Shown in pieces: positions 2,395 through 40,667 of a stretch of DNA of 64,000 nucleotides. Positions within the stretch are counted from its first letter, which is position 1, and every line of letters begins with the position of its first letter. The notes under the pieces were generated by a model, which did no database searches, had not been told where the DNA came from, and saw only the letters and a program-made list of their open reading frames with translations. This stretch comes from Mesodorylaimus sp. YZB2_4 (Eukaryota > Nematoda > Enoplea > Dorylaimida > Dorylaimidae), in NCBI GenBank assembly GCA_030248295.1, contig JASANH010001421.1, forward strand, positions 124,001 to 188,000. The letters are read 5' to 3'. A program made the position numbers and the translations under genes.

Positions 2395-5300
2395 CTGGAA
2401 CAATGTCCAAGGAGTCATAGGAGGGAAGGACTGTAGAGGATTGGGCAGGGCCCTCCTGTGCTTAAAGACTGAATCTAGGTTACGAAGGCAAAAGCACGAA
2501 GTCATGGGTTCCCCCAGGGAATATCTACTACAGGGGGACCATGCTACTTGCCCCCCATCTCATACCCCTCATAGATGGAGACCTGCCCCATATTCTAGGT
2601 ACACCACACTTCCAAAACACTGCCTTGGGTGAGGATCGAACTCACGACCTTGAGATTATGAGACTCACGCTCTGCCGACTGAGCCACCAAGGCATACTAC
2701 GGCAAATTTGGCTGGGATACGATTCCTTGCTGTCTGTATGCAAGAGTCGTTCGGGCGGGGGCAGGCAGCCAAACATGAGAAGGAACACCCTCTTATTTGC
2801 ACAATAATGTAAATTTTCCCCTCTTGTCCCGTGTTGCTGACATGAGTGAACCAAGGAAGCCCACTAAAAACCACTGAGGCCAGCACCTCCCCAAACCCCT
2901 CTCCAACCCTATGTGCAGTGAACTGGTACCTGCAGACGCTGCATGAAGTCCCGTTGTCGATCGGCGTATGCCTGGGGATCGCTGATAAAGGATCGCAGAC
3001 GATCGGAGACGTCGTCAGTGCGGACTCGGATGGACAATGAGGGCTCTAGCTTCCTGGGGGTCATCCTAATCGTAGTGACCTCCTCTTCGACGACGTGCCG
3101 ATCGCCCACTGGTGACAGCGAAGGCAAGGACGGACTGTGCGCCCGTTGCAACTTGAACTTGTATCCTTCTTTTTCGCGCCTTTTGATAGCTTCGGCGAAC
3201 GCTTGACTGGCCAGCATAGGACTGGGAATAAAGGCCAACAGGCCCAAACCAGCTGCCTCCTTCAAGTTGATCTTGGCCCCCGTCTTTTTGTCAACGCACT
3301 TGCCATCAGAATTGATGAGACCAGTCTTCAGTGCATTTCTCAATGTCGTCGTTCGACCACGATCGACATCACAAATCAATGAATCGCCATCGATCAAGCC
3401 ACGATCGATAGCTTCTCGGAAGGTCAAGTACAAACCTGTCTTTTGTTCTCGCATGCGACCCGAGTTCTCGTCGAATTCGTACGAGTCAATCACGTGGCAG
3501 AGGTTCCTCTCCTCAGCTCCTTCTTGCGCCGTCACGCTGTCCGTATCGATATATCCTTCTTGCAAGGCTTGTGAAACGGTCATGCGACGGCCGCTTTCGG
3601 GGTCGTGGAATTGATTTGATCGGATATCGATTAAGCCACGGCCGAGTGCTTCGGCGAAAGTGAGTTTGTCCACACGTCTCATCCTCTGACCAATTTCCTT
3701 GGGGAATTTCCCTTCTTCCACAGCTCGACCAATCGGAATGAAGACCCCGTGGGATACTTGCACTGTGCGCTTTTGTGGGTCCACCAAACCGCTCTCAATG
3801 GCCTCCAGCAGATTGACTCGTCGTCCCGAATGCCAGTCTTGGATGCTGGCCTCGGTGATCGCTCGGAATGTGCCTTCGTCGACCAGACCCACCTTGACCG
3901 CTTCCTCCAACGAGTACTGCTCGTTAGTGATCGGATTGTTGTAACGTTTTGACCTGACGTTGAGCAGATTGTCGTTGATAGCGCTGATAATGGGCACGGC
4001 GTAGCTGAAAAGGGCAAAGAAGGGAATAAGACATAGAAGATCGAATGAACTCTAGCCTCGTCTTCAGTAGATTGACCGATGCCCAATTATGTCCTGGTGG
4101 GTTACGCGTCTGCCTCTCACGCCAGATGTGCAGTTAGCGGCAAGTGTTCTCGGCGCAACTCATTTCATGTAAAATGAGTCCTCATCCTCCCGTGTGCGTA
4201 CCTGTACTTGGTGATGAGGTAAATTATGAAACTATGAGGTACTACTGTAACTTGTAAATTGTGGGCCCAAACATGACCGTGTTCATTCATGTACACGATT
4301 CTAGTCAAATGCTTGCAGTCACCCACTCTCGCTTCTGTACTCTAGCTCGCAGGTGTCATTAGCACACAGACTCCGCGTGGACTTCTTCCTGTCTCCGGAT
4401 CGGGCCCCAAGACCCATACTACACAAAACGGTGCCTTGGGTGAGGATCGAACTCACGACCTTGAGATTATGAGACTCACGCTCTACCGACTGCAGGCGCG
4501 TACGCAAGGGGGGGGGGGCTTGGGGGCTCGGGCCCCCTACGACCCTGAAAAGTAAGGTAAGGGTAGCTACCTTTACAAACTTCGTGCAATCCCGGCCATG
4601 CGTTTGGTTACATGTCCACTTCATACATTTTTGTGTTTTCGCAGTGCAAGATTCAAAATTTTTGCGCCTCCGGCGGGGCGGAGATAAACCCAGTGGCGAG
4701 CACAGCGGGTGGCATTGCGGCCAACGGTCCCCGTCCAAACCAGAGAAGTGGGAGAGGGATTTGAGCCCACGCGGAATCACTTTCCGTCGGATCTTATGTC
4801 CGACGCCTTAACCACTCCAGGCGGCATTGCGACCTGGAGTGGTTAAGGCGTCGGTATAAGATGATAACATTAAAGGTTTTCCTTGTATATGGTGAGTACG
4901 GTATGCTAACAAAGATGGCACTCATTGCTTCTGTACGATCAGAAAGATTGCGCGCAAATTTTGGAAGGCCAGAAGCCACGCAGAAGCCTTCAGCTTTTTG
5001 ACTTGAGTTTTTGGCGGGGTTAAAGAAAGTGATTTCTTAAACTAAGTTATTTCTCGCAAATTTATTTAAAGAATCGTGAAAAATTGTGTCTGCGAGAGCT
5101 AATTTTTAAAAAATTTCGCCTCCGGCGGGGCGGGGGCACATCCCCGGCCCCGCACCCCACCCCCTCTCGGGCGCTTCGCGCCCTCGGATCGCGCCTTCGG
5201 CGCTCATTTTAAAATACCAAACTGGACTCTATTTTCTATTTAGCCACATCCGTCTCCTGGACTTTGCGTGATGCACTAAATTAGCATATTTATGCAAATT

Positions 5301-8300
5301 TTTTGCTGGCACCCCACGACCCACAAATCCTGCGTACGCGCCTGGACTGAGCCACCAAGGCGCTCTAAGAAGTAAGTAAGGAGAATGAGTACGAAGAGGA
5401 AGAGTCTCTCAGGCAGCCACAAACAAACGCATGTACTGGTTCAGACCTGACCTAGCTTGGCAACAAAGAGCAGCTGGCCGATCAGCATCCAGGCTGCAGC
5501 AGATTAATGATGGTGTATGTTGTCTGTACTGAGGTCGGAGGTTTTGTGTTTAAAGTATGTGATCAACAAAGCATTTCGTGTCGGACGCGCCTTCCTTGCA
5601 TGCATCTCTACTGGTACCCGCCTCTTCCTGAGATCACACACCCTGCTGACCATGTATAGCAGTCCTGCACAAGGCCATAGCTTACCCTTTCCTGGGATCG
5701 TACACGCCTTGCATGGTGACACTGGTGTAGACTGGCTTCAATATATCCAGCCAAGTGATCTGCTCCTTTTTGAACGGATTGGTCACAGTGCCCGATCGCG
5801 GATCGATAATTCTTAAATCGATTGCCCGCTCGATCGATATGCGCTCGCCGTTAGCCGGGTTGCACACTCCCTTGGGTAACACTTCGGCCAAGGTCAAGTC
5901 CATTAGTCCCATGTTAGCAGCTTGCACGAAGTCATTCTTCTCATTGGTTTGGGGATGAATATATACCAGATCACGGATATCGATCAGACGCGATTTTATG
6001 GCATCTGCCAACGAAATTCGTTCGTTTCTGTTTGGATCGAGGACACCTCGACTGACCGCGTGCGAAATATCAGAACGGTAAACGGCGTATGTCTTGGTAA
6101 GCTGCTTGCCGTGTTTGTCCACTTTAGCCAGTCCAATGCGTTGGGCTTCAGACAAGGCCATGACACGACCAGTACGGTTATCCCTGACCTTGTCGATACC
6201 TATCAGTTCTGCGTGAGGCTCCAATTCCACCGATTGTACCTGTGCCGTCGACTTGACCGTGGTGTGCATCTGGGTAACGTAGGGTTCGTCGTGAAGGCGG
6301 ACTGTGAACTTCATTCCAGTGCTGGGGTCGATGTACTCGCCCTTCTCCACACCCTGCTCGTCCTTGATCACTTTGACCATAGCCCGCTTATCACCGCCGA
6401 GGTCGACCATTTGTTGACGAGCTCCCGGACTGATATCCCGTCTCGTTTCGACTGGTTTGTAAGGGGCCACTTCCAGGGGCCTTCTTATAGCACCTGCGTA
6501 ACCGACTGGTTGGATGATACCGGATATGACAGCTTGCGGCAATCCTGTTCCTTCGCCAGAGCTCTTATTAATGACCAGTCCCCGGTGTAAGTCAACAACT
6601 TTTTCACGAATGGCTTCTGAGAAAGAGATTTCCTGGCCCGTGCTGGGGTCTCTGACCACCATGCTCTCTGGACTGATAATACCACGCGATATGGCCTCGT
6701 GCAAATGCACACATCCCTTGCCATCGGCCAATTGGAACTCGCCTGTGCTCAAGTCCAAACGACCGCTACTAATGGCTGAATCCAATGTTTGGCTGGCAGT
6801 GCCTGAACGAATGATGCCTCTTTCGAAGGCTGTCTTCAAATCTACGCGGTGACCGGATGCGCTGTCCAACACGGTGCCACTGGTGGCGTCGACGATGTTC
6901 TTTTGTATGGCATCCAAGAACGAGAGCTGTTCACCCGTCCTCGAGTCGATGACCAAGGACTCGTAGGGATTGAACAAGCCCTTGATTATGGCCTCTTTCA
7001 AAGTCATCTGTTTCTTGGTATCGGGATGCGTAAACTGACCACTGGCGTGATCGTACCATCCCAAATCGATGACCTTCTCCAGACCGTAGTCGACGAAGGC
7101 GGATGGGCCAGCGATGGCTGCTTCTTTCATGCTCGTCATTTTCTTCACCTGTTGCCGTACATCTGTCCTAATGGCACCTTGAGCGTATTGGCTAGACCCG
7201 CCGCTCACGCAGATAAGACCATGGGCAGCTGCTTCTCGGAGACTGTACTGGGTATTATGCCTCTTATCGTTGTACCAATCGATCCTGGGGTCGATCAGTC
7301 CCCAATTGACCGCTTCGGCGTACGAGAGTTCCCTGTCGGACATGGAGTCCTTGACCAAGAGCATTTCCTTGCTGACGATGCCAGTGCGAATGGCATCGTC
7401 CAATGAGTACCGACGTCCGCTGTGGCCGTCCACGATCTCGCCTGCTTTGGGGTCGAACGAGAAGGACGACTCGCTTTCTTCCATGGTCGATTCTCCCACT
7501 GGGACGATACTCATGACTGGCCCCGTTCTGGCACCAAATTGGATGACCTTGGTGACAGGCTTGGCAACTTCGCGCGGTTCGGGCTGCACGATCACGTGGC
7601 CAGCGTCGATAGCTGCTCGCAAATGCAAGATCGAGCCAGATCTTGGATCGCGCATATGGCCTTTAGAATCGACGACCCCTCGTTCCAAGGCTTCTCTTAT
7701 ATCGAGATGATGACCAGTTTTTGGGTCTCGAACAGTGATGTGTTTCGAGCTGATAATACCCAGATCCAGCGCCTCCTCCAGGCTCACTCTCTGCTGCGTG
7801 TCTGGCACTGTGATATGGCCAGACTCGAAGTCGAACAGACCATCTCTTTCCGCAGTGAAAAGATGCAGTCCATCGACTGGCACCTCCAAAGCCCCGCGTC
7901 CGCTCGTTATGGCCCTGAAGGCGGCTACCCCTCCTGGTCCGCCCGTGGTCACTGTCTCCTTCGTCCTCAGACGTTTGACCGTGGTTAAGGTTTCTTCGGT
8001 ATGACCCGAGGGCTGGTGCTTGGGCGGCATCAGCTGACTGGTTTCGGTCATCTCTTCTGTTACTGATTCTTGGATTCTGGGTGCGGTGGTGTCCTTATGA
8101 GGCACAATCCACTCCGAGGATGTATCGACCAGTCCTCGATCCAGGGCCTCCTGCAGCGTCATATCCCTGTCCCCGTGGCGGTATCTCTGCGACTTGGTGT
8201 CCACTAACCCTTGGCGCATAGCCTCGGCCAATGTGGTCTTCACCTGACCCAGGAGCCCTCCCTCTGGAGGTCTAGCGCGTTTCTTTTTGGGTTCAGCAGG

Positions 8301-19345: not shown

Positions 19346-20367
19346 TGACTGTCAATTATTCAAAAAATTACACACTAATTTGCTCTATTCTGAAGCCTCA
19401 ATGTTGTCAAAGTTATGTGCTAATAAAGCCTTCTAGGATTACTGACCCAGACTTTATTTATACCCCTTTATACAGTAACGCACCAGGTACCTACTTCCAT
19501 GCGCCTACAGTTCAGCATACCTTACCCACCTTCAATGTTGGTGATCGGAAATGGATTGTTCTACTTTTCCAGTGCAAGGTGCGCTACAGTATTTGAGGGC
19601 TCACAAAATTAAACGGGCACTAACGGGCTGTTTAAATAAAGAAACACCCAAATGCAGAATACAGGACGGCCAGGTATACTTACCTTTCGACAACGCAAGA
19701 AATCCAAGCATATTTGAACTCTGTGAAGGCAGTGGAGACGAATTTGTCCGCTTATGGGTCTCTATGTAAGCAAGAAAATGTAAATGTCAGTGCATTTGAG
19801 GGAGAAAGATATCAGTAATATCTCTTCTATATGTAGCCTTTGCGAGCAGCGATCAAAACATCCTCTCCACAATGCGTAATACACATGATGCAGCTCCTAA
19901 CACAGGTTTCGAAATCGACTGTCCAAGAAATTGTTCGAGATGTTTCATTTTGGTGAAAAAAACTGGGCTATTTTGTCTGTTTTTCAACAAATAGAAAGCC
20001 TTGCTAAAACTTATGATGGGGCTTAAGGATTTGAGTCAGATGCCTGGAAATGTTGGAGAATTTAAAAATACATGTCAGAAAACCTGTTCTTATAACTCAT
20101 GTTTCCTTGAGTGTCCTCAAACATGTCCCCAGCAGGCATGCGTGTTGGCGGTAATGGGGCCAAAAGCACACTCACCAGCGATCACTTCTCACTCACCACG
20201 TACCCCTTTTCATGCCATTCGACTCCCAAGTGTGACCTAATAAGCCTTTTTGGGCAAGTGCCAGATTTGGCTGGACTATGATCATACCTGATGTGCACCA
20301 AAGAATAAGGCTGCTACTGTACCTGGGTATGATCTAGCTGCAGTAGACAGGCACTTCGCAACTAACC

Positions 20368-20548
20368 GTAGAGGCTCGGCAGGCAGTCGATCCTTTGAAC
20401 GGAGCCGGCAGTTGGGAGTGTCACCAGTCAGGGTCATGTCTCAACCATCGACTAGGTCGGAAGACTATGTTGCCTGCCCTGGGTTTTTGGCGTGATGCAA
20501 AAGTTCCACCTGTCACTCCCTCCAGTAACACGAACCCAGACATACTAC
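20368..20548 (+). repeat. Dispersed repeat, family B, copy 3
   Basis: This is a 181-bp copy running from GTAGAGGCTCGG to ACATACTAC. It is clearly related to, but diverged from, the two 181-bp copies at 39423-39603 and 39722-39902, sharing CGGAGCCGGCAG, ACTAGGTCGGAAGAC and GCCCTGGGTTTTTGGCGTG. The central GTCACC/GGGTGAC hairpin is degraded here. I see no target duplication. Confidence 0.75.
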
Positions 20549-21376
20549 GACACTTTGTTTCATGCATTTTAACTGGGGACATTTTGCATGTAGTTGACAA
20601 ATAGTGTGCACTTTTGTCTCCAGGTTCGGGGAACCCTGATGTATATCGCTGTGCAGGCTCAAAAACTTGCATACGTGGATCGGAGTGATGCACGTTAGTT
20701 CAACAATGTTTAGCAAAAAAGCACACTACAAAATCCTTGAATTCTCTAAAGCGCATGATATTTTTAAAAGAAGTTTGTATGTCACCTCGGCGAGCTCTCT
20801 TATAGCGTGTCATGCCTTCCATTTTTGGTGCTTTGGAAAAACACTTGGAGACTTATTTGGCTCCAGTGCATCTGATCGTAAGTTCTTTCGGATTTATTGA
20901 CCTGATGCTGCTTGGTTTCATGATCTTCCAGTATCCAACAAAAAATAATCGTTGCTCACTTGCAACAATTTTTTCCCGCTCAATAATTCCAACAACGTGA
21001 TCAGAAGGCAGCCGTCCCTCAAATCGATGAATAAGTCATGGATCTGCTTGTTTTTCTGAAAATCTCTAATTTTTGGAGATCCCAAATGGATAATGTCAGT
21101 TTAGGAATCGCATACCTTCTTCAAATGTTGGTTGGCCCATCGTGTAAACGCTTTCTTTTGCATGAGATCGCGTTCATCTGAAATAAAATTTATAGTCTAA
21201 TTCAAACTCTTGGGCGCAGATACCAAAAATGTTGGTTTTTCTGTTCAATGCTCTGATAAAACAGTTTGGACGGCAGTAAGCGCGTAAGTATCCATTGACT
21301 CATCATCCATGGGACACTGTATCTTGTTCAAAATGTCATACACAGAAGCTTGGCACCGTGTTTGAGAAAACATATC

Positions 21377-22477
21377 TTATACTTTGTTGTCATCAAGTAA
21401 CCCGAGCACTGCATCGCTGTCAGATATCCTGTATCCAAGATTTTCTAACCTCCCTTGATCAGACATCGCGCTTTCTTTTTTTGTCGACGACAGAGCACTT
21501 GGTTCCAAAGAATGACGACTTCTTTGCCATTTGTTGCAAAATGCCTTTTTGATGGAATTTCTAACTTGTTCATTCATCGTGCACAAAACGAAATTACTGG
21601 CGATGCTATGCGCAATCACGAAGAAAGTACTGTACGGGTATAAAATTTGAATGCGATGTTCTGGGACCATTTTGAAAACGGAAATGACCATGACACTAGT
21701 AACTGGAAAACAACTGAGAAAAAATACGATAGAAACATCCCACACTAGCGCTTTCGTCAATGCTTTCTGACGTTTCAGGTAGGCACTGGGAATCGCGTTA
21801 TTATTTCGGTCTCCCATTTTTTGTTTCCTTATCAAATCGAGCACAGTAACCGTTGATACGAGCACAGTGATGAGAGATATGGAGAAGACAAGGATGTAGT
21901 AAAATGCGACGTACGATCTGCCCACTGCATTTATTAAAATACAGTTGTATGGCCAAGTTGGCGACTGATCTTCGAAATAGGAACAGATATAGGCAGCGAT
22001 CAGGACAAGTGCACTGAAGACGACTAAAATGACAGACGCCCAGACTTGATGCTTGGTTTTGACCTTTTGATAATAAAGGAGAGGAAAATGGACGGCTACA
22101 AAACGCTCGCAAGCATTGGCCATGATGGACATATTGGCTAGCATTGCCACAAATATAAATAAAGGGGAATAAATCCTCCACATGCAATGCCAAGCCGAAA
22201 CCAAAAGTGCTGATTCGCCAGTCAGTATGTACTTCAGTCTGAGACCGCCAGCAAGGGCATATGTTAAATCAAAAGCACTTTTGGCTATTTGCATAGTAGT
22301 CAACAGAATGTGACGTTGACCCTTGCGAAGCTCCACACTTTTGCAAACCAGGCTTATGGTTACAACAGCAGAAAATTTGAAGGCGATGAGCCCAAAAATG
22401 ATATAGGCAATAAAACAGCCAAGATTATGCGAGGAAATGGAGATATTCGGAAATGAGTTTGTATCGTTTTCGAACAT
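21377..22477 (-). CDS. Rhodopsin-like orphan GPCR, single exon
   Basis: This is a 366-residue seven-helix receptor with no introns. Helices are readable around CFIAYIIFGLIAFKF (TM1), ILLTTMQIAKSAFDLTYAL (TM2), SPLFIFVAMLANMSIMANA (TM3), VWASVILVVFSALVLIAAY (TM4), AFYYILVFSISLITVLVS (TM5), ALVWDVSIVFFLSCFPVTS (TM6) and TFFVIAHSIASNFVLCTMN (TM7). The DRY position is CERF followed by VAVHFPLLYY, a variant form. I chose the ATG at 22477 (MFENDTNSF) because it is the first ATG and is followed by N-glycosylation sites. A close paralogue lies head to head at 24657 as a pseudogene. The ligand is unknown; chemoreception is a guess from the nematode-like divergence. Confidence 0.8.
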   Translation of the reverse strand: MFENDTNSFPNISISSHNLGCFIAYIIFGLIAFKFSAVVTISLVCKSVELRKGQRHILLTTMQIAKSAFDLTYALAGGLRLKYILTGESALLVSAWHCMWRIYSPLFIFVAMLANMSIMANACERFVAVHFPLLYYQKVKTKHQVWASVILVVFSALVLIAAYICSYFEDQSPTWPYNCILINAVGRSYVAFYYILVFSISLITVLVSTVTVLDLIRKQKMGDRNNNAIPSAYLKRQKALTKALVWDVSIVFFLSCFPVTSVMVISVFKMVPEHRIQILYPYSTFFVIAHSIASNFVLCTMNEQVRNSIKKAFCNKWQRSRHSLEPSALSSTKKESAMSDQGRLENLGYRISDSDAVLGLLDDNKV

Positions 22478-22868
22478 TTTGCTAACATGTGGGTGCAATG
22501 ATAGAGAATACTGGCCCACGATCCGTTTTCTTGCGCTGACCGTAACTGGGCAAACAACGATTGTGCAAAAGTATTTTAGCCATGCTTAAAGCAGAGAATA
22601 AAAAATCGATAGTAACATATCGCATTACCTAAAAAGCCAGAAATAGAATAATGGCATTACCCGAAATGCGACTGCAGATTATTGCCTGGCCGTGCCGATT
22701 TACACAACCTTTTCCAATTCTCTCCTAATTGCTTAACGGAGAGTAGAAAAGACGGATCGATGTCAGTGTACATACTCGTTCAGTATTTGATGTACACATT
22801 TAGATAATTATAAAATCAAACTTGGGGTCCGTTTTGTTAAGTGAATATGTACCCAGGCCAGACTCAAT

Positions 22869-24252: not shown

Positions 24253-24656
24253 CACTCACCCTGGCCTGCCCGGTAGGGGCTACAATATGTACCTGCTGAC
24301 ATTGAAAATTCGTAGCACCTATCCAAGTTCCTGGATATTTGCTATGATCATCATGGGCAACACGTGGGCATGACAGACAATACGTGGGCATTACTCGAGG
24401 GTAGCCTGCTGCGTGACCGTGATCCCAAAGTGCTCTAAATTATTCCATTTATGTATAATGGGGTTTTATTTAGGTCAGACGCGTCAGAAATTTGCATACT
24501 GGGGTGCTTATAATATCGAGAAGGCCCTATGAAATTTGCAATTCGGATTTATAATCAAGCAGCTGAGCCTATCAAACCAGTCTGTCATATTTGAGCCTCA
24601 CAGATCTTGACGCTTGAAAGACCGCCAATTGTAGTCGTTTGGTGAAGCCTCCTAGA

Positions 24657-25633
24657 ATGGTTCTCCATGGCACTGTTTCCGCAAATAAAACTCCAATTTT
24701 TCGCAGCGACCTCAGGGCTCAACAGGTCGGTTTTATCATTCTCGGTCTAATCGGAACTGTGCTTTCTGGTTTGATTTCAATCAGCTTACTTCTCAAGAGC
24801 GAGGAACTTCGAAAGGGTCAACGCCACGTCTTATTACCATGTTGGAAATAGTGAACTGTAGCCTGAACTTAACCTACCTTCTAGCGGGGTCTCACCGTCT
24901 CAGGTACGTCATGACGGGGTAGTACACTCTGCACGTGTCATCGTGGCAATGCATGCAGCGCATCTATAATCCCTCTATTCGCCTTCACATTGCAGTTTTT
25001 CCCGTTGACCATATTGGCTAATGCATGCGAGAGATTTATAGCAGTTAAATTCTTAACATTTTATTATCAAAAGGTCACAACTAAACATCAGATCGTAGCA
25101 CCGTTTAGTATTGTTCTATTTTGTGGTGTAGCAACAGCTGTGGCCGTCATATGTTCCTACAATGATTACCAAGAGCCAGTACACCCTTATACGTGTATGG
25201 CCACTCACGCAGTCGGCCCATATTACACTAGCTATTTCCAAGGTATCATGTTCATCTCGACCATGCTCAGCGCACCCATCTCGCTGGCGACCATGTGGGA
25301 GTTGGTGAAAAAGATCAAGGTCCATAATTTAAATCATCACGATTCTAGGCTTGGCTGTTATCACAAGAGACATAGAGCTTTAAGCAAAAGCCTAGTGCTG
25401 GCCACCCTGGTCGTTTTTGCATTGATGTGCTTCCCGTCCAGTATGTTCTTCGTTACTGCTGGTTTGCATGTTGCCAGTCCCGAATGGTTTGAACTGGTAG
25501 CTCCGTGAACAGTTTCATTATCGTTACACACAGTATCGTCAGCGATTTTGAGCTATGCGCCATGAATCGCAAGGTTCGTGAATCTGTCAAGTCTTTATTT
25601 TACAGCTTCATGCTCAAATGCCCTATCCAGTGA
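24657..25633 (+). pseudogene. Decayed GPCR paralogue
   Basis: The plus strand carries most of a copy of the receptor at 21377-22477. It keeps EELRKGQRHVLL, NACERFIAVKF, FYYQKVTTKHQI and MNRKVRESVKSLF. It is broken by a one-base deletion near 24833, a stop at about 24919 where the intact gene has a glutamate codon, another frameshift near 24990 and a further shift after 25490. With four lesions it cannot make a receptor. It is arranged head to head with the intact gene. Confidence 0.85.
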
Positions 25634-25974: not shown

Positions 25975-28900
25975 TCATTCCTGATATTTCCTTCCCAAGT
26001 ACTGAATCAAATTGACAATTTCAAACACGCTCATGGCAGAAATGCCTAGAAATGCGCCAACCACTGAGGAAATGTCCCACAGGACGTCGAATATCTGAAA
26101 AAGTGGAGTAATTTGCTTCATAAGGAATGGTAAGACAATGACGGAGCTTCTCTGGGTCAACCTGAGCATACATACTAAGAGAACATTCGGCGCTACTGTT
26201 ATGTGCTCATCTAAAAAATGTATGGTGACGCCGAAAAAAGAATTCCCACCCTTTTATATGGAAATCCACACAAACTGAATCCTTGAGAGATATTGACCAT
26301 TTTGGACAAGCGGAGAAAAATATGTATTTCGACGTTTGCCAGAAGCTTCTCACAGTTTGAACTTGAAAATCTCTTTAAAAAGGATGTGTTAGCCGATTTG
26401 CGATCATTTTGATAGATTCTATACAATTTCAGAACAAAAGATGAAGTGTGGCTAAAATCGTACAAGGAACCAGTTTTTGTGATTACAGAGTGGTGAAAAT
26501 AATTTTGTTATTGTTGCCTCACCATACGCTTATTGTCAGAGGTAGGTAGTGAGAACACCACAATAAAATTATTAAGGCAATACTTTCACTTTGTCCAGGT
26601 TGGTTCGACCCTCAGTGCCAATATTCAAACCCTGATCGTCTTACCCCGTAGGCTTCCACTTCGTGATATTCAACTATGGTTAACTCTTGAAAGAAAATAT
26701 CGATCTTTGCCACCTGCGATTTGCTGAAAATATCCTTCCATTCTGAGATGCAGATTAGAGAACTGCTGAAGAACTTACACGAAAGCCAGAGTCGCATTCA
26801 CATCAGTTGTCTTTAGAGGGACCTGTTTAGAAGAAGTTTTGACTAGGAAACGTAGTTATGACTATTTCAGATACTAATAGGCTACTTATGTTTATGTTCA
26901 ACTTTTCAAAATGCAAGGTGGAGAGAAAGAAGAAAACCAAAGACTAGTACTTGAGGTCGAAATAACTTCATCATGCTGAGAGTCGTTTCATAGACGCTGG
27001 TTCTAAAACAACGTGTCCTTTAGACTCACGTTGCTCAATCGCACTGAAAAGGTCCTACCTGCAATTTGGAGGACATCTGCACTCGGTCTCTGTCGAGTCA
27101 TCCAAGGAATAATACGAATTGACGCAATTTCCTGTAAAAATAAAGTTCACCCACTGACTTGGACAATGCGAAACGCTGTGTACGTTTTGTGACGGGGCAC
27201 AGTTTGACCTTGGATCCAACGGGTAGCGGGACTCGGGGGTCCCCGCATTTGCATTTCTGAATAACTTTATCTTGATAGCAGCTTCTTTGGCAGCCCTAAA
27301 AACTTTTATTATCATTTCTGAAAATAAGATGCTGAAGATATGCTGTACCTCGACTGAATAGGATGCATTGTAGTTGAAGTAGTTCACGTTGGATGCAGAT
27401 TCGGCGCATGACTTGGCGGTAGGCAAAATATGACTGGTTACTATCTGAATAGAGGTCATGTTTGCATGGTTAGCCTCGCATTTATGGTTCATGCTCACAG
27501 AAATAAGCAAACCTAGCTGTTACAGCTACTCCTTACTGTAGCTGTGCACCCGCAAGCGTTTTCTAGGAAGGTCAGATATTACAACGGATGAGATTTTCTG
27601 AAAGAGCTTGGGCTATTGAATTGATGGCTAACAAAGGCACCTGGGCCATCAGTCTGGCAAGTCTCATCGGAACGCGATAAAAATCTAGCCTAATGTACAA
27701 TGTAGTACAGAAGTATTACACAGTATTGCTTTCGAAAGATGATAATCTAGCCTGCTTGCGCAAACAGCAAACGACAGCTAGGGACAGTTTACAACACAAA
27801 TCAGGCCACAAACCGGACTCAGGGCCGCAGCGCTGTGATAACCAGTGGGCATATTGAACCCCAACGTGTCTGGGAAAACGGGGTCATTTTGCGCGTGTAT
27901 GACCACCCGGACGCCGGCTGCTGGAGTAAAGTCTAAATATTCCTCTTGGCCCACTTGGTACGCAATTGAGAGCCCTAGAAATCACGACTGCCAACTCCTT
28001 CGCAAGAATAAACTGGCACATGTTCTGGCACATGTTCTGCTTACCTTTGCCCATGCCAGCTCGTTTCGCCACCATGTGCTCGCCATTGGCATTGTAAGTG
28101 TAACAGTTGCCGTAGTTTGGATCCATCAGCAAAGTGAAATCCCTGCGTCGCAGCACGTAAGATTAGTAGTGCCACCAAGTATGGCAGCATAGCCTCTCAT
28201 ACTTCTCGGAGCAGTTGACCCCGTTGTACTCGCAATACAGCAGAACCTCACGCAATGAATACCCCGCGCTTTGTGCCACGTCCGCTGGCAGGGAAGCCAT
28301 GATATAAGCTAGGATGTCTGTGCTAGTCGCGCTCATCGCCTGAAGATCAGCTTTGACCTGCAAAGAGAGGACATGTCGAAGTATTATTAAACAGTGCTGT
28401 CATGGTTACCTCGTCAAGTGAGTCCGAAATGTATTCCTCGACCTCCTTTGGTACCTTGCTTCCATCCGCGGAACTGAAACAGGTTAGGAGTATGTTATAT
28501 TTCCAACCTCGGTAGAAGCTCCATTTCAGTAGACTCCCCAGGAATTGTGTGCGATTGCCAGATATGCTTTACCTGTCAGTGCTGATTATTGGTGCTGTCA
28601 ATGTCGCACTGGCCTCGCTATCCGGCTGGTGCTGAATGCCATCAAATATGAAGGATCGCGGTGAAAAAAACGTGTCGCCTTTCTCGCTGGGTAATGCTGA
28701 ATCGCTCGATATATCCGCTGCTCCCTGTCTTGGCTTATCTTTAGCTTGACTGTCGGTCTGTTGTGTATCTGGAACCCGAGGAAGCGCATTTTGGGCGGGT
28801 GTCACTCGATTGTTTGATAGCCATCTCCTGGTATCCTTACGAGGATCGACTGAGACTGAATCAGGTAATGGCGCTTCCAGCCGAGCATCTTTATTGGCCC

Positions 28901-31900
28901 CTATACCATCCGATGGGGCGGCCGTGGTACTTGCTGGCACACTCCCCACTTTGGCAACCGCTGTTGTTTCTTCTTCGATGGGAATAGACAGCCACATTTG
29001 GCCTGTGGTGTCCATCGATATTTGGGTCTCCTCTGTTGCCAGATCATCCGCTCGCGGAGGTGACAAAGAATCGCCATTCAGTTGGTTACTAGTGACCAGC
29101 CATACATCAGCTTTAGTTGGACCTATCCCTCTGGTTGACCGAGTCTTCTCTTTAGTACGCTTTTCAGTCGCTCTATTGCTCTTTTTGCGGTGTGATGGTG
29201 CCCAAGGTGTTACAGTTCCTACTGATTTCAGAAAGAGTCCTGACGCATCAGTGGCCCTATCGGCTAGTTTTCCAGTTTCCCCAGTGTTAGACAGTGGTGG
29301 AGTGGAATCCGGGAATGAAACTGCAAATATAAGCATAGAATTCGGATGGGAATCTTCAGTGGTGGGCGCAACTGGCTTCGTCATGTCGCTTGTCGATTTG
29401 AGAACCGCGGCCATATTCATACTTCCAAGAGATGGTTGAGTGTCCGCAGTGGCTTCGCCATCTCTCTTTGCTGTAGACGTGAGTTTAAGAATGGTCGAAG
29501 AGTCGGAAGTCAGGAAGGAGTCACCAGTAGAGCCAAGCTTTGCGGTAGTGAGACTAGTTAAATTTAGTTTTGCCGAATCAGATGCATCATGTGTGATTAT
29601 GGGCCAACTTGGTTTTTGGTTTGGTAAAATTACGACTCTATTTCTGCTGTTATTGATACTATAAGGAGTACTTTGCGCATCGCTATCTGTGGCGTAGTCA
29701 GTTTGCGCACCGCTCAAATGAGATAAAAATTTAGTAAAGGACGATCTGGGAGCAATAAAATCAGGCGCTGTCAATTCTTTAGTGATAGGCGTTTCTGTGC
29801 CTATCAGTGCATCTCGCGTCGCAACGTTCAATGAAATGGGAATTGGCACAGGTCGGATAATTCCCTTCAACATGCTTGATGCATCGCCGCCACGAAATCC
29901 AGAGATATTGATTATTCCAGCAGAAAGCGGTGCCGAAGACACAGAATCGGCAACGCGGGAACTCAGACCTCCTGTCCTACTTTCAATTCGGGCGGCGAAC
30001 TCTGCATCGCGAGTCATTCGCATAGGCAAGCTTGTTGTCCCGCCTGTAAACTCTGAATCAGACGAACGTGTGCTCACGAGGATCTTCGGTAGCATCAAAG
30101 TGGTGAGGGAGATCGCATTCGTGTTTGATGGTTCTTCAGTTGATAACTGCGGCGCTTTGGACGGCAATGTCAGATTTGTATTGGCTGTCAGACTCACTGC
30201 CTCTGTTACTTGCCCAGAGGGGAGAGCCGTAGTGCTGAAACCATCGAGAACTGCAGGTGTGTCAGTCACAGCAGGGGCAAAAAGGGTATTCGAGTGGATG
30301 GCTTTGAGAAACGATGTGGCCGGAGTAGCATCTGTGGTGGTAGGCGACGCGGGAAAAGAGGAAGGCAATATGGAAGGTGCGACATTAGCTGAGATTTTGC
30401 CAAGCGAGTGACTAGACCAAATGTTGGTTGTGGATCCTGGCAACTCGTCGCTAAGCTGAGAAGTGGGATCAAGGAAGTTTTGAATTTGATTTGGAGAAAC
30501 GTTTGTCATGGTTTCAATGGCTTCTATTCCGCGTGAGTTTGCAAAGGGCGCTGGAGCTGTCACATGGGATACAGAGATTGGAGGCGTCCAGATAAGGTGT
30601 GGGACTGACATCATGGAAACATTCACAGTACGTATATACGCGGCTGAGGCAGTCTGATCTTGAGTGAGATGTATGCTTGAACTCGTGCTTACTGTGTTTG
30701 CCGGAGAGTCGGCGCTCTCTGTTGCTGCTGCTGTAGACGCTGCCACTGTGGGAATGGCTGACGAGTCAGCGCTAATTACTGAGGTCAATGATCCTGTTGA
30801 AGATGTTGGGGCATTACTACTCGCTGCATCTTCGCTGAAAAGAGATGTGGGGACCATGGATTCGGCAAAGGAGGTTGCGGGGGTTGTGTCAGTAGAAACA
30901 TCTGTCCCAGTCGCAGCATCCTTGGCCATCGTGGTTTCGTAGCTCTGAATTGTTGATGATGTTGCTTGCTGCTGAGGTATATTTGCGCCGATGCTTGCTG
31001 CAGTCTCCATGGCAATCTCTGTTTCTATTCTTCTAGATGTCCACATGTAATTATTTTTCGATTCTATTAAGTGTGAAGAGGCAGAAGCAGTATTGAACAA
31101 GGTTGTTTGTCTGTTTCTCAAAGCCCCATCGCTGTGGGTGACCGTTGACGCTGCGCTGGTTACTGCGATACTGGAGCTGCCTTGATATCCAAGCTTTGAC
31201 GACGCCTGTTGTGTGGAGGCGGATAAGCTGTGTGCGAAGACTTGAAAAGGGGCCTTCATAAATTGGGTCATGTGCAACGCGGTCTGTGTTGATTGTGGTG
31301 TTACAAGGATTCCGGATGTGGCTGTTGGCGCAGCAGTCAATAAACTGGCCTTTGTGGTTGACGGCTGGTCTGCGAATGAGGCGGATGCCAGCAAACTGGC
31401 CACTGTTGCAGTAGGCGTGAATGGCAAGGCTGCGCTCACGGTAGCTCCCGAGTTGCTGGAATCTGCGACAGATGATGATGGCAATTCTATAACTGCCTCG
31501 CTGGATGAAGCGTACACAATAGGTGCAGGCGTCAGCGCATTAGTGCTTCCAACAGATGGCTGGCCTGAGAATAAAGTTGATCCCTGGAGCATCATGGAAA
31601 CGGTAGGCAGACTGTGCGATGTCGACGTCAATCCAAAACCTACAGATGCTTCAGATAAAGGGGAACTGCTGCTTGAAGCAAGAGTGGTCAAGGCCGAGGA
31701 TAACACTGAAGATTTGACAAACGAGGATGGCATCGATGCCACAGTGGATAATTTTCTTGACAGGGACGATGTTGCCGCTGTGCTTGCTGCGGTTGATAGT
31801 GTTGTCTTGACGGAAGATGTCGTTGGGGATACATTCAAAGATGCCTTTCTTGTTGGAGTGGTTGGAGTTAACTGAGCCGATGTAACTTCGGGCGTCGACG

Positions 31901-34900
31901 GATGGTACATTATCGCAGTGCTTAGGGATTCTGATGCAGCGCTGCTACCCAACGTCGAAGGCGATATTGACTCGACCGCTGTCGATGTGGACGATTCAGG
32001 GTTACTAGAGACTTCATTGGACACTTTAGATGAGTGGATCAACGTTGTAGCTGCAGCTGTGCTTGGTGCGGCTGACGCTACTGCCACTACTGATGTGGTT
32101 GGGATTTGAGCTGCAGAAAGCATAGTAGGAGCAAAAGGCGCAGTGGGAAGAGATGGCTGAGCTGACGTCACTGCAAGCGGCGATGCCGATGTCACGCCAG
32201 TGCCTATGGATGAAGTACTGCTGCTCAGGGTTGAGAAAGACGCATCGTCTGTCTGTGATAGAGTGGATGACTGATGCGTAGCTTTCACAGGCGATCCACT
32301 TGTTTGGAGTAATGTTAATAGGGGAGCTGTGCTCGTAGTAGTTATTGAACTTGCCATTGATGTGGTTGAAGGAGTGCTTACATGCAACGTAGTCGCTGCT
32401 GGAGATGTTGTAGGTGTAAGTGACGATGCTATTTCGACAACAGTCGTCGATGGTGATTCAGAAGTCACCAGAGTACTTATGGATTCCGCTGAAACAGTGC
32501 TTGAACTAGAAGTTGTAGATGAGACTGAAGCGCTCTCTGCCAATACTACAGTGGATGATTTGGGCTCAGTGGTTGCTCCAGTGGGCGATCCACTTGTTTG
32601 GGGAAATGTTGCTGTGGCAGCTGTGCTGGTAGTTGTGTTAGTTATTGAACTTGCCATTGATGTGGTTGATGGAGCGCCAATGGGGGATGTGGTCGCAGCT
32701 GAAGGGGGTGTAAGAACAACTGAAGATGATAATACTGTCTCTTCAACAGTGGTCGATGGTAGTTCGGAAGTCATCGCAGTGCTCCTGGATTTCGTTGAAA
32801 CAGTGGTAAATGTCGGAGATGGGACTGACGAAATTTCTGTCAATGCTACACTGGATGATTTGAGCTCACGATTAGTGGTTGCTCCGCTTGGCAACCAAGA
32901 TGATTGGCTGCCAGGGCTTATGGATGCAATAATGCTACTCAGAGTTGAGGAAGGCGTATTTTGTGCCAGTGAGACAGTAAATGATTTCTGTGAACTGGTA
33001 GTTTCAGTGGGCGATCTACTTGTTTGGGGCCATGTGGATAGGGTCACTGCGCTTGTGGTTGGTGTTGCATGGGGCACTGATGTGGTTGAAGGTGAGCTAA
33101 TGGGGGGTGTAGTCGCAGCTGAGGGGGTTATAGATGTAACTGAAGATGGCGATGCTATTTCGACAACAGTCTTGGATGGCAGTTCTGAAGCCGCCACAGT
33201 GTTGATGGATTCTGCAGAAACAGTATTTAAAGTCGTAGATGTGACTAATGAAATCTCTGTCAATCCTACAGTGGATGATTTAGCTTCAATGGTTGCTCCA
33301 GTGGACGTCCCAGTTGACTGGGGAAATGTTGTTGCGGCAGCTGCGCTTGTAGTTGTGGTTATTGAAGTTGCCCTTGATGTGGTTGATGGTGCGCTAATGT
33401 GGGACGTTGTCGCAGCTGAAGGGTGTGGAGTAGCAACTGAAGATAGTGATGCTGTCTCTTCGACAGTTGTGGATGGTAGTTCGGAAGTCATCGCAGTGTT
33501 CCTGGATTTCGTTGAAACAGTGCTCAATGTCGGAGATGGAATTGACGAAATTTCTGCCCATGCTACAGTAGATAATTTGGGTTCAGTGGTTGCTCCAATG
33601 GATGTCCCATCTGACTGGGGTAGTGTTGCTGGGGCAGATATGCTTGAGAATTTTTGTGTAGTTTTCGAGGTTGAAAGGGAATTAATTGGATGTGTAGTCA
33701 AAAGTGACGATGAAGTGGCTATGGATGGAAGGGCCGATGTGGATGTAGCAGATGTTGTATTGATGCTTGAAGTGACAGTGCTAGCTGAACCCACGGACAA
33801 GATACTCGTAACTGCCATCGATGATGTTAAAGTTGTGCTCGAGGTTCCTGTGGTTGGCAACATCGTGGTAGAGGTCACAGCTTCAGGCGTGGTACCCAGG
33901 GGCGTTGTGGTGGCAAATGCTGTTGATAAAGTCGATGTAGCAAACAACGGTGTGGATGACGAATCTTCGTTCGGAAACGTAAACTGAGGGATTGGATGTG
34001 TAGTATTTGGTGTTGGGGGCAGCGCGGTCATGAGAGATGAATGAGCTTGAGCTGCAGCCGCTGTTGATTTCCCCGCTGTCGGTGTGGTCAAAAGTCTTGT
34101 GGTGCGCGCCGTCGTCCTGTAAGACGTAGAGGGCGCAGCTGTACTAGCAGAAGTAGTAGTCAGTGGTTCGAGACCCGTCGGCATAGTCGGGTTTCCATAG
34201 TAATCTGAAACGGAGCAGAAAAGCCAAATCAGCCTACTCATAAGGAAGTCGGAGGAAGTCAGTCTCACGCACAGTCGCATAAAATGCCAAACGTGGGGTT
34301 CGAGCTGGGGTCCCAATTTTTGAAAATAAAGTGTGTAGCATTCTTTGTGACTGTGACTGGACCTCCGTTGGCCCAACCAAAACCGCTGTCATCGACGATG
34401 CAATTTGGGCAGATCGGAAACTTGATAGGCATGGGCCAATAATTGGTGCTGGTATCGTACCAGAAGTAGTTCCCCGCACCATCTCCATACATGCCGATCC
34501 AAAGAGGTGGGGTCGACTTTATCATGTTCTTCACGGCGGAGATGGCCAAAGTCTCGTTGACCAGCCTTATCAGACGCGGTGTCGAGAAGTATCCATCGCT
34601 GCAACAGGTGAAGCCGCATGACCACGAGACGATTGCGTTAGTCGATCTGAACTTTTTCCAATTATCATAAGATGTGCTTGCTGAAGTAGAAGTACAAGAG
34701 CAGGCCTGCCTTTTCACGCGCTTCGGCCCGCCTTTCTTGCCCGATTGCTTCGAGATGTTGTCGTACGATTTAAGTAATTGTGCCGCTTCGGGGATAGTCG
34801 GAAGCACTGCCTTCTTGTAAGGATTCATATTGCAGAATGTTACGGCGGGAAAAGGCATGTGATTGGAGGTTATCTGTGTAAAATACGTGCTTTTGAGTAA

Positions 34901-35199
34901 GATGCCGTCTGCAACAAACTATCTTATCCAAACCTTACCATGGTGATCACCTTCGTGTCCTGCTTGTTGTAAGTTCTTCCCAAAGTAGCAACTAATGAAA
35001 TGGATGCTGCGATAGCAGCAAAGGTCACGAGCCACCACCACACACGTTCAGCCACAGTCTTGGCTGTTAATGCCAGATTCAGGGGGTCGACCGAAGTCGC
35101 GGCACTCTTGTGTTCTTCCATAATTTGTGTGCTCACCAGTTCGTTCCCTGATCGAAGATCGGAAAGTTTGCGACTGAACCTGGCTCGACAGCACTTCAT
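25975..35199 (-). CDS. DEG/ENaC channel with inserted C-type-lectin-like and mucin-like domains
   Basis: This is a degenerin/epithelial sodium channel subunit. Exon 1 (35199 to about 34939) holds a short N-terminus and TM1 (WWWLVTFAAIAASISLVA). The next exon opens with the post-TM1 motif MPFPAVTFCNMNP. Further exons carry GYSLREVLLYCEYNGVNC, NYGNCYTYNANG, the palm strand RVVIHAQNDP, the cysteine block GCQRSCYQDKVIQKCKCG, ECRCPPNC, KIDIFFQELTIVEYHEVEAY and TM2 with GAFLGISAMSVFE. Between TM1 and the finger lie a furin-type site, a lectin-like domain and a 5.6-kb mucin-like exon, which the splice phases place in frame. One intron (near 28180-28120) is only 60 bases. The exact exon 1/2 junction is uncertain (GTAAGG or GTTTGG donor). 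Total length is about 2,600 residues against 500-800 for the family. Confidence 0.82.
28573..34204 (-). other. Mucin-like exon (about 1,877 residues) of the DEG/ENaC gene
   Basis: This is one uninterrupted exon, rich in Thr, Ser, Ala and Pro, with no long hydrophobic segment. It begins after TTTCAG at 34205 and ends at donor GACAG|GTAAAG. Its length is 5,632 bases, which carries the phase correctly from the lectin exon (one base over) to the next channel exon (two bases over). Between about 32330 and 33600 it has four or more degenerate repeats of about 100 residues, marked by PQTSGSPTGATTEPKSST, VSTKSR/VSAESI and SELPSTTVEE. Such sequence is expected to be heavily O-glycosylated and extended. 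Confidence 0.85.
32330..33620 (-). repeat. Internal tandem repeats of about 300 bp in the mucin exon
   Basis: On the plus strand the marker GTTATTGAACTTGCCATTGA or a variant, followed by a TGATGTGGTTGA-type block, recurs near 32340, 32640, 33060 and 33356. Spacing is about 300 bp, with one longer unit. The copies are diverged. They explain the long open plus-strand frame over this segment, which is not a gene. Confidence 0.75.
34273..34706 (-). other. C-type-lectin-like domain inserted in the DEG/ENaC loop
   Basis: The segment after the furin-type site reads NWKKF, a cysteine pair, TPRLIRLVNETLAISAVKNM, then WIGMYGDGAGNYFWYDTST, a later PICPNCIVDD, and a final FGILCD. The order W, C, helix, WIG, W-x-D, C and final C matches the C-type lectin fold. 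I see no EPN or QPD sugar-binding triplet, so calcium-dependent sugar binding is uncertain. The exon ends at donor GACT|GTGCGTGAG, which joins in phase to the mucin exon. Confidence 0.7.
34709..34720 (-). other. Furin-type cleavage site RVKR in the DEG/ENaC extracellular loop
   Basis: The codons for R-V-K-R lie in GGPKRVKRQAC, between the post-TM1 motif and the lectin-like domain. The sequence fits R-X-K/R-R. Vertebrate ENaC alpha and gamma subunits are activated by furin cuts in their extracellular finger, so a similar role is possible. Confidence 0.5.
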
Positions 35200-39056: not shown

Positions 39057-40667
39057 CTACTTACAAAAAAAATCTTTAACCTCCTTTCTAAAACTAATAC
39101 TGAATTTGTAATAAAGGTAAAAATTAGCGCTTCTTGTCAATAAACCCGCTAAAACTGTGAACCAGTTATCAACAGCGTAAAACATGATTAGCCTCACATA
39201 TCTGTAGACTTCTGCCATGCTGCTGTCAAATCCGATTCCTTTTTCTAGCTCTCGCCTTATGGGGGATAATATAAAAAACACTATTATAGAGAGCTGCGAA
39301 AATAGAAAGAGAGAAGCAAGGACTCCCAGCAGCTTTAGGATGCCTGCAGATTGTTCTTCTACCGCCTGTTGCTGCTGTGATGATGCACTGTCGCTGACAC
39401 GAGTGCGGCGTCTTTGAATGATGTAGAGGCTCGACTGGCAATCGATACTCTGCACGGAGCCGGCAGCTGGGAGCGTCACCCGTCAGGGTGACGTTTCAGC
39501 CATGTACTAGGTCGGAAGACTTGGTGGGCTGCCCTGGGTTTTTGGCGTGGTGCAAAAGCTCCACCGGTCTCTCCCTCCAGTAATACGGACCCAGTCGTAT
39601 TACATTGGTGCGTCGGCGGACCCGACCTTGGTCACCCCTCGTGGTATCCTGGTCTCGTCTCGCCTCCGTCCTTCTGCAGGTGTCCTCGTTCGGGCCTGCC
39701 GGCGGGCGAGAAGGGAGTGATGTAGAGGCTCGACAGGCAATCGATACTCTGCACGGAGCCGGCAGCTGGGAGCGTCACCCGTCAGGGTGACGTTTCAGCC
39801 ATGTACTAGGTCGGAAGACTTGGTAGGCAGCCCTGGGTTTTTGGCGTGGTGCAAAAGCTTTACCGGTCACTCCCTTCAGTAATACGGACCCAGTCGTATT
39901 ACAATGATAACAAGAGCGATTCTAAGGGAAAAGTAGAAAACGGATAAAAACAGGAGCGACCTCACGATCATGGTGACAATGTAAAATGAATTTCGATAAG
40001 TTTGACTCATCCCAAGATCAGTAAGCCCGATAGCATATACCTTGTCACCTTGATCATTCAAAGTTTCAATAATCTGATCAGAAAGAAAAGATCCAATGCA
40101 TCTCAAAAGGGCTACAAGCGAAGTCAAGGCGACCCCTAATACTGTGAACCACTTGCTTTTGTGAAAAGTTTGTTTTGGCTTGCAAATAACTAAAAATCTC
40201 TCAAATCTTAAAATGACAGTGGAAAAGTCTGCTCCCAAGTCCAACAGGTATAGAGCCCGGAATAAGTAAAGCATGCAAATCATGCCTGTATAACTGTACC
40301 GATACAAATTCGGATTAAGAGAACCCCCTGTGTGAGCGTAAGGTATAAACAGAATGTTATAAAGTAGCTCAAAACTTGAAATGGCAAACATCCAACAATA
40401 AAAGCGCTCTTTTTTGACAATGGCCTTACGCCATAGCGATCCTATGCAAAGGGCACATCCTATAACCCCAAACGGGGGAATCCCCAAGTACCCAACATGA
40501 CTTAATTGCGCAAAAATGGTTTGAACTTTGAGGACCATGGCAGAGATCCAGAGCCAATCTGATTTTGAGACGTGCAACCATGGCCAACAGTCATTTGAAT
40601 CATTGATAATCGAAATTTCTCGTGGTTGAAGCCTGAACCATTGAAGGGCTGATAGGTTCGAAGCCAT
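39057..40667 (-). CDS. Rhodopsin-like GPCR interrupted by a 480-bp repeat that may act as an intron
   Basis: Two open segments make one seven-helix receptor. 40667-39903 encodes TM1-TM5, with FERFLVICKPK at the DRY position. 39422-39057 encodes the third intracellular loop (QRRRTRVSDSAS), TM6 (LFLFSQLSIIVFFIL) and TM7 ending SANFYLYYKFSISFRKEVK. Without the insert the protein is about 374 residues, normal for the family. The insert (39423-39902) sits exactly between TM5 and the loop. If the GTAATA at its edge and the TTGCCAG twelve bases before its other end are used as splice sites, the frame is kept and six residues are added. Otherwise the gene is broken after TM5. The ligand is unknown. 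Confidence 0.68.
39423..39902. mobile_element. Dimeric family B insertion with 6-bp target duplication
   Basis: Two near-identical 181-bp units (39423-39603 and 39722-39902) are separated by a unique 118-bp spacer, giving a 299-bp period. The insertion is flanked by AATGAT at 39417-39422 and 39903-39908, which marks recent insertion. Each unit starts GTAGAGGCTCG and ends GTCGTATTAC and has a strong central hairpin GTCACCC/GGGTGAC. No protein is encoded. Confidence 0.82.

Follow-up and report, generated by a model that had tools for sequence, protein, structure and literature searches.

The window analysed here is a stretch of 64,000 nucleotides (nt) from the nematode Mesodorylaimus sp. YZB2_4 (GenBank assembly GCA_030248295.1, contig JASANH010001421.1, positions 124,001 to 188,000 of the forward strand). 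A single minus-strand gene, read from 35199 to 25975, is by homology along its whole channel part a subunit of the DEG/ENaC family. On sequence comparison, a C-type-lectin-like domain and a mucin-like block of 1,878 residues occupy the place of the small Cys-rich domain and short linker found in other nematode degenerins. The gene is well supported as real and belongs to a large family of paralogues within its genome; the predicted fusion protein almost certainly exists, and the joint proposal of a fused gene that serves as a sensory tether appears reasonably probable. An earlier prediction from the same DNA (the original prediction) had proposed the fused channel. Two predicted features are new relative to it, a furin-type site before the lectin-like domain or the block, and the absence of a His-Gly motif ahead of the first transmembrane segment (TM1).

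Gene Structure

The gene model comprises 14 exons, which were placed by means of the open frame, GT/AG borders and similarity. The elements are as follows.

34939..35199, minus strand: exon 1, N-terminus and TM1 (about 35043-34981); the Pfam ASC match starts at residue 45
34273..34873, minus strand: exon 2, FPAVTFCN (34852-34829), basic cleavage-type site and C-type-lectin-like domain
34709..34720, minus strand: furin-type site R-V-K-R (motif R.[KR]R), directly before the lectin-like domain
34274..34708, minus strand: C-type-lectin-like domain, about 145 amino acids (aa), 8 Cys in the spliced protein (AlphaFold2, Foldseek, VIA-align)
28573..34204, minus strand: exon 3, mucin-like Ser/Thr-rich block, 5,632 nt, 1,878 aa
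28410..28473, minus strand: exon 4, linker toward the helix preceding the next channel segment
28203..28357, minus strand: exon 5, ...AYIMASLPADVAQSAGYSLREVLLYCEYNGVNC; matched in 20 of 20 paralogue loci
28045..28142, minus strand: exon 6, DPNYGNCYTYN segment
27814..27974, minus strand: exon 7, beta-ball/palm segment; ASC 1.2e-6 for the open reading frame (ORF) alone
27349..27444, minus strand: exon 8
27184..27295, minus strand: exon 9, thumb, GCQRSCYQ...CKCGDPRVPLP; matched in 19 of 20 loci
27059..27131, minus strand: exon 10, CRCPPNC
26951..27002, minus strand: exon 11
26779..26822, minus strand: exon 12, borders set by phase and similarity; the least certain exon
26645..26723, minus strand: exon 13, wrist/palm strand preceding the second transmembrane segment (TM2)
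25975..26094, minus strand: exon 14, TM2 with the G-I-S (G-x-S) motif (about 26064-25996) and the stop

The product has 2,515 residues. The spliced frame contains one terminal stop and no internal ones, the phases match at all borders, and the introns measure 52-128 nt except for two of 369 and 550 nt. The start at ATG 35199 is assumed; an in-frame TGA lies 12 bases upstream of it, and ATG 35121 is a possible alternative. The originally predicted order on one strand, TM1, lectin, mucin, channel and TM2, is borne out by the continuous frame of this model, with all elements in the order and phase proposed, and the two borders singled out at that time, 34273/34204 (phase 1) and 28573/28473 (phase 2), are also borders of the model.

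The assignment to the DEG/ENaC family was likewise correct, since Pfam ASC (PF00858) is matched end to end. When the channel parts were joined and the block left out (a 637-residue query without the 1,878-residue block), the match reached an E-value of 3.5e-75 and 254.2 bits against a curated cut-off of 23.6, spanning residues 45-625 and profile positions 15-453 of 455. The gene model and the ASC match together give two transmembrane segments flanking one Cys-rich ectodomain, with G-x-S (GIS) in TM2. The Cys of FPAVTFCN (C101), that of DPxYGNC (C2251) and the thumb cysteines are all present in the window protein; from the ASIC1 structures we presume that C101 and C2251 form the FCN-YGNC pair. 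The relatives of the joined channel parts in the PDB are ASIC, ENaC and the FMRFamide-gated channel (FaNaC). A protein search that scored 7,996 candidates, those sharing most words with the query, gave seven matches, six of them from nematodes, with 95% query coverage in the Haemonchus match only.

One Gene or Two

The Ser/Thr (S/T)-rich exon might instead be a separate secreted mucin gene lying inside an intron of the channel gene. The S/T-rich ORF is open by itself and could in principle have its own transcription. The exon holds an ORF of up to 1,876 codons, compared with 136 on average and 266 at most in 200 mononucleotide shuffles; such a shuffle is a simple null, and the composition of exon 3 itself favours open frames, as is also seen from a 570-aa frame on the opposite strand (32275-33987).

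The evidence against two genes comes mainly from paralogues. The genome searched (labelled G000) is an assembly of 145 Mb in 1,067 contigs. The exon-2 protein gave 48 matches, or 44 after four second pieces of already counted exons had been dropped, and the segment following the block gave 142, from which a subset was taken that spans the post-block or DPxYGNC segment and those after it. A channel exon is found downstream of 35 of the 44 FPAVTFCN-type exons, on the same strand, at a distance of 0.6-9 kb and with no other such exon between, the linkage being assigned by nearest match. Twenty-one of the 35 linked genes were read, namely that of the window and 20 fetched loci.

Each junction is crossed by single ORFs in different paralogues. 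FPAVTFCN and the S/T block are found together in single ORFs at L034, L035, and L036 (1868, 1813, and 1665 aa), and the block together with the following channel segments (window exons 4-5) in single open frames at L033 and L037 (1847 and 1626 aa). The last two frames may read through a short intron matching window intron 4: L037 has a likely intron of 84 nt inside its frame at this place, removal of which keeps the frame, and no intron of this kind was named by the scan in L033. At the block/channel border itself there is no break in either of them. The donor of the lectin/mucin border, a T followed by GT, falls at the same codon in 12 of the 13 domains caught by the pattern (L047 has A followed by GT, and one internal false match in L044 was set aside), and in seven of these 12 cases an acceptor close by leads into an S/T-rich frame whose first residue is Phe or Tyr.

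In addition, the phases fit at both borders, and strand and order are kept in the 35 linked copies. A cassette exon was also considered and rejected: with a length of 3n+1, exon 3 cannot be left out without a change of frame, and a stop is then met at residue 317; this out-of-frame product speaks against two genes as well. In view of the single-ORF fusions the two-gene reading was rejected, and we regard it as extremely improbable. The original claim of a true fusion, as opposed to neighbouring genes, thus holds at each junction.

The Lectin-Like Domain

The AlphaFold2 model of the domain has a predicted local distance difference test (pLDDT) score of 82.5 and a predicted template modelling (pTM) score of 0.82, and the Foldseek and VIA-align matches of this model agree with a C-type-lectin-like fold. 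A profile of 16 family domains (the window and 15 others) found three PDB chains, all C-type lectin-like, the best at 2.2e-4. Pfam Lectin_C (PF00059) did not match the window domain and matched one of the 16 family domains, at E 0.013. The original proposal of a lectin-like domain therefore stands as far as a C-type-lectin-like fold goes, by prediction, profile and structure matches, while membership of the Pfam family is not claimed since its cut-off was missed.

The other lectin domains of the family are 18-30% identical to that of the window. Such divergence is what would be seen if the lectin bound a soluble ligand near the finger, with the stalk as a spacer and the family expanded for diversity of ligands and not of reach; that the peptide-gated FaNaC is among the PDB matches also favours a chemosensory variant of this kind. 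It leaves unexplained that the stalks range from some 140 aa or fewer up to about 1,880 aa, and is considered unlikely.

The Mucin-Like Block

The block of about 1,880 residues that had been predicted is found to be 1,878 aa long, S/T-rich and free of Cys. It contains 691 S or T residues (36.8% S+T), 7.8% P and 10 N-glycosylation sequons. The S/T content declines from about 45% on the lectin side to about 22% on the channel side, with the charge rising. A module S-E-x-P-S-x-T-V occurs in four copies with spacings of 99, 140, and 102 residues, and a tandem repeat with a period of 297 nt and 1.9 copies is found at 33078-33637; self-blastp of the block listed no repeat pairs of at least 50 aa. 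The block is very probably O-glycosylated and extended.

Among 14 long blocks (the window and 13 loci), which were selected as long S/T-rich ORFs, the S+T content is 30-45%, and DNA matches of at least 150 nt occur in one pair of 91. In the pair L051/L052, 37 of the 45 gaps in the alignment have lengths divisible by three, and the ratio of nonsynonymous to synonymous substitution rates (dN/dS) is 0.65 over 1,367 codons; the value of 0.57 in the better-aligned part is biased low because that part was chosen by identity. Gap phases, dN/dS, and the shared S/T composition look as would be expected of a translated mucin constrained in its composition.

The Family in the Genome

An S/T-rich ORF of at least 1,143 aa is present in 13 of the 20 paralogue loci. 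Shorter or broken S/T-rich ORFs are found at L043, L044, and L049, one of about 200 aa at L041, and at most short ones (about 140 aa) at L045-L047. At L051 and L052 the frame of exon 2 stops inside the lectin domain. Among the 13 loci in which TM2 was matched, 12 retain its G-x-S, and L041 reads NAS.

A tree was built from joined family fragments of 230-417 aa and roughly cut outgroups of 352-601 aa, the latter being P0001, P0002, P0003, and P0005 out of the seven protein matches. The family is separated from these four nematode outgroups with a support of 1.000, and the inner nodes have supports of 0.60-1.00. Stalk-bearing genes are found in most branches, which, with a small outgroup and modest inner support, suggests that the stalk is ancestral and that it was later shortened and the lectin lost in some members.

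Just past the 3' end of the window lies the paralogue L045 (G000:C188:189881-191718), which has a lectin-like domain and little or no stalk. At L041 a second family copy is found beside C14:810464 (5027-5305, exon-1 match at 4704); it has a stop in TM1 and is perhaps a pseudogene.

The Furin-Type Site and the Position of the Lectin

It is well documented that ENaC is activated when polybasic sites are cleaved (PMC8791634). In the present family the motif R.[KR]R is found in 17 of 22 FPAVTFCN-bearing ORFs, 36-90 residues past FPAVTFCN and shortly before the lectin domain or the block, with shuffle P-values of 0.001-0.09 per ORF. It is also present no more than 200 residues after the FPAVTFCN-type motif in six of six nematode relatives, and is not found anywhere inside the 1,878-aa block of the window. 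By eye, looser basic clusters are present in four ORFs that do not have the motif, L039, L044, L047, and L048. Cleavage before the lectin domain appears slightly more likely than not.

The site matters for the topology of the protein. The original prediction placed the lectin as a head on a brush. This does not hold for the uncut chain, which puts the lectin at the base with the mucin looping between two attachment points; a cut at R-V-K-R would free the lectin end and place the lectin at the tip of the stalk. The tip position thus requires a cleavage that we infer from the motif. If the chain were left uncut, lectin and mucin would form a closed loop at the finger with no binding by a tip, and the mucin might serve as an entropic or steric cushion that sets the spacing of subunits, as protection or as a mucus-like cover. 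In the primary sequence the two ends of the block are indeed joined to one subunit, and the blocks are alike in composition and hardly in sequence, as for a filler. The distribution of R.[KR]R, frequent ahead of the lectin or block and lacking within the window block, speaks against the loop, which is an improbable arrangement on these grounds.

The N-Terminal His-Gly Motif

The His-Gly motif holds the lower gate in chicken ASIC1 (PMC10148893). In a by-eye alignment without gaps, the window protein has T-S-V-D-P (35083..35097, minus strand) where the Caenorhabditis relative P0002 has T-S-A-H-G. Twenty loci were examined, and His-Gly before TM1 is absent from the window protein and from all 15 loci with an exon-1 match, 12 of which have x-P at this position; exon 1 was not found in the remaining five. 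L004, another DEG/ENaC of the same genome and the only readable one among L001-L008, reads HA, so the motif may not be universal in the Mesodorylaimus genome.

The consistent loss of His-Gly would fit a non-conducting adhesion or scaffold subunit, in which the DEG/ENaC frame is reused for display of lectin and mucin with no ion flow. Against it, the window protein and 12 of 13 loci retain the G-x-S of TM2, the cysteines of ectodomain and thumb are kept, and the single reading from L004 is HA. A non-conducting subunit is judged decidedly unlikely.

A Proposed Tethered Channel

In the mechanism we propose, a furin-like protease would cut at R-V-K-R in the secretory pathway. The FCN-YGNC cysteine pair would keep hold of the first piece, which runs from TM1 to FPAVTFCN. 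The lectin domain would form a new, freely projecting N-terminus at the far end of a rigid O-glycosylated stalk, which is anchored by its foot in the finger/knuckle segment of the channel. If the tip bound a ligand, a surface or the matrix, the foot could be pulled or released and the pore thereby gated. At the roughly 0.25 nm per residue of a glycosylated mucin, the stalk, if glycosylated, might extend over several hundred nanometres. Its paralogues would then serve as sensors differing in specificity and reach. A role as force or matrix sensor, as the original prediction had suggested, is conceivable; gating through the stalk is possible and quite doubtful. Equally tentative is the overall picture of about 35 or more channels without the His-Gly lower gate, carrying cut-freed lectin-like tips on mucin stalks of about 100 or less to about 1,900 residues and thereby having a graded reach.

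Several observations weigh against the fusion or its role as a tethered channel. R.[KR]R is absent from five of the 22 ORFs (L039, L044, L047, L048, and the second copy in L041), and the missing His-Gly could mean that conduction is altered or that there is none. Three of the 20 loci (L045-L047) have no comparable block and three others (L034-L036) no lectin domain, so neither insert is indispensable. At the lectin/mucin border the scan found no near acceptor for five of the 12 domains with the common donor, and part of the conservation of this donor may simply reflect a conserved cysteine whose codon it overlaps. EPN or QPD together with WND are the Ca2+/sugar motifs of lectins. All three are absent from the window domain, EPN and QPD also from all 16 family domains, while a WND string occurs somewhere in two of the 16 (L038 and L015); the window domain is thus not predicted to be a Ca2+-dependent sugar-binding lectin. 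Finally, none of 2,451 candidates outside this genome (2,515-aa query, residues 36-310 scored) was a relative of similar length, and the architecture is therefore known from one genome only.

In current models the tether of a DEG/ENaC channel, if there is one, is a partner in the matrix or the cytoskeleton that is distinct from the channel (PMC10148893), and for this reason the route by which force or matrix contact acts on these channels has resisted experiment. In the present family the candidate tether is built into the channel, and a single genome offers it in a natural series of lengths; stalk length, cleavage, and tip could thus each be varied separately. The finger region of DEG/ENaC channels apparently accommodates an inserted sequence roughly threefold larger than the channel itself, and a gating motif that is otherwise conserved can apparently vanish across a whole subfamily.

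Neighbouring Genes and Other Loci

On either side of the channel gene lie open frames that by eye resemble seven-helix receptors (21377-22585, minus strand; 24618-25508, plus strand; 39876-40667, minus strand). Similar peptides, ALGFWR.AK.PPV.PSSNT.P, are encoded at 20347-20604 and 39492-39725 (plus strand) and are perhaps copies of a dispersed repeat. Other DEG/ENaC ORFs of 507-1,015 aa on contigs C64, C617, C223, C120, C189, C215, and C59 give gapped ASC matches; the gaps fall at differing places of the profile, which suggests further ectodomain inserts elsewhere.

A 523-aa COX1 frame in the invertebrate mitochondrial code is present at L053 (1273-2844, G000:C73) on a long contig and is perhaps a nuclear copy; 16 COX1-like matches are listed in the genome. 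Among the best 120 matches listed out of 7,997 candidates scored, its identity is 78% to each of Longidorus vineacola and Xiphinema rivesi, the highest-placed entries with an organism name, 59-63% to named insects and up to 82% to unnamed entries; this points to a dorylaimid nematode.

Comparison with Known Systems

The closest relatives are the nematode ASIC-1-like DEG/ENaC proteins of Haemonchus (P0001), Caenorhabditis (P0002), and Acanthocheilonema (P0003), which share the order TM1, FPA-T-CN, R-x-K/R-R, Cys-rich piece, channel segments, thumb, and TM2. What they carry as an insert is a linker together with a small Cys-rich domain, while that of the window gene is a lectin-like fold and 1,878 residues; the A. 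viteae relative has a Thr run or linker at about the place of the block. His-Gly is found before TM1 in P0001, P0002, P0003, and P0005, but not in the window family. As for the lectin-like domain, those of the NK-receptor and Mincle type are, in the matches concerned, 8-18% identical to that of the window.

The original prediction knew of no DEG/ENaC subunit with either insert, and our search of the openly licensed literature agrees with this, no description of a subunit with a lectin-like or mucin-like insert being found there. EGAS-1 to -4 of C. elegans (EGF and ASC) likewise combine DEG/ENaC with an extra extracellular domain; it is EGF-like, and no lectin-like or mucin-like block is described in the part of that source consulted (PMC10424705).

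The alpha and gamma subunits of vertebrate ENaC also have polybasic furin sites in the ectodomain, and their cleavage regulates gating (PMC8791634). The GRIP domain is called unique to ENaC subunits in that source (PMC8791634). In GRIP an inhibitory tract is excised by two cuts, whereas the window gene has one site followed by the lectin-like domain and the giant stalk.

Polycystin-1 (PC1) has a C-type lectin domain, and the ectodomain of LOV-1 is Ser/Thr-rich. Both are related to channels and have a large cleaved ectodomain, LOV-1 being cut at the GPS with its N-terminal part going to the matrix (PMC9829181). They differ from the present protein in being unrelated 11-TM proteins that are cleaved by GAIN/GPS and not at a basic site. 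The way of working closest to the proposed tether is that of MEC-4, for which tethering to proteins of the extracellular matrix has been called an attractive model (PMC10148893).

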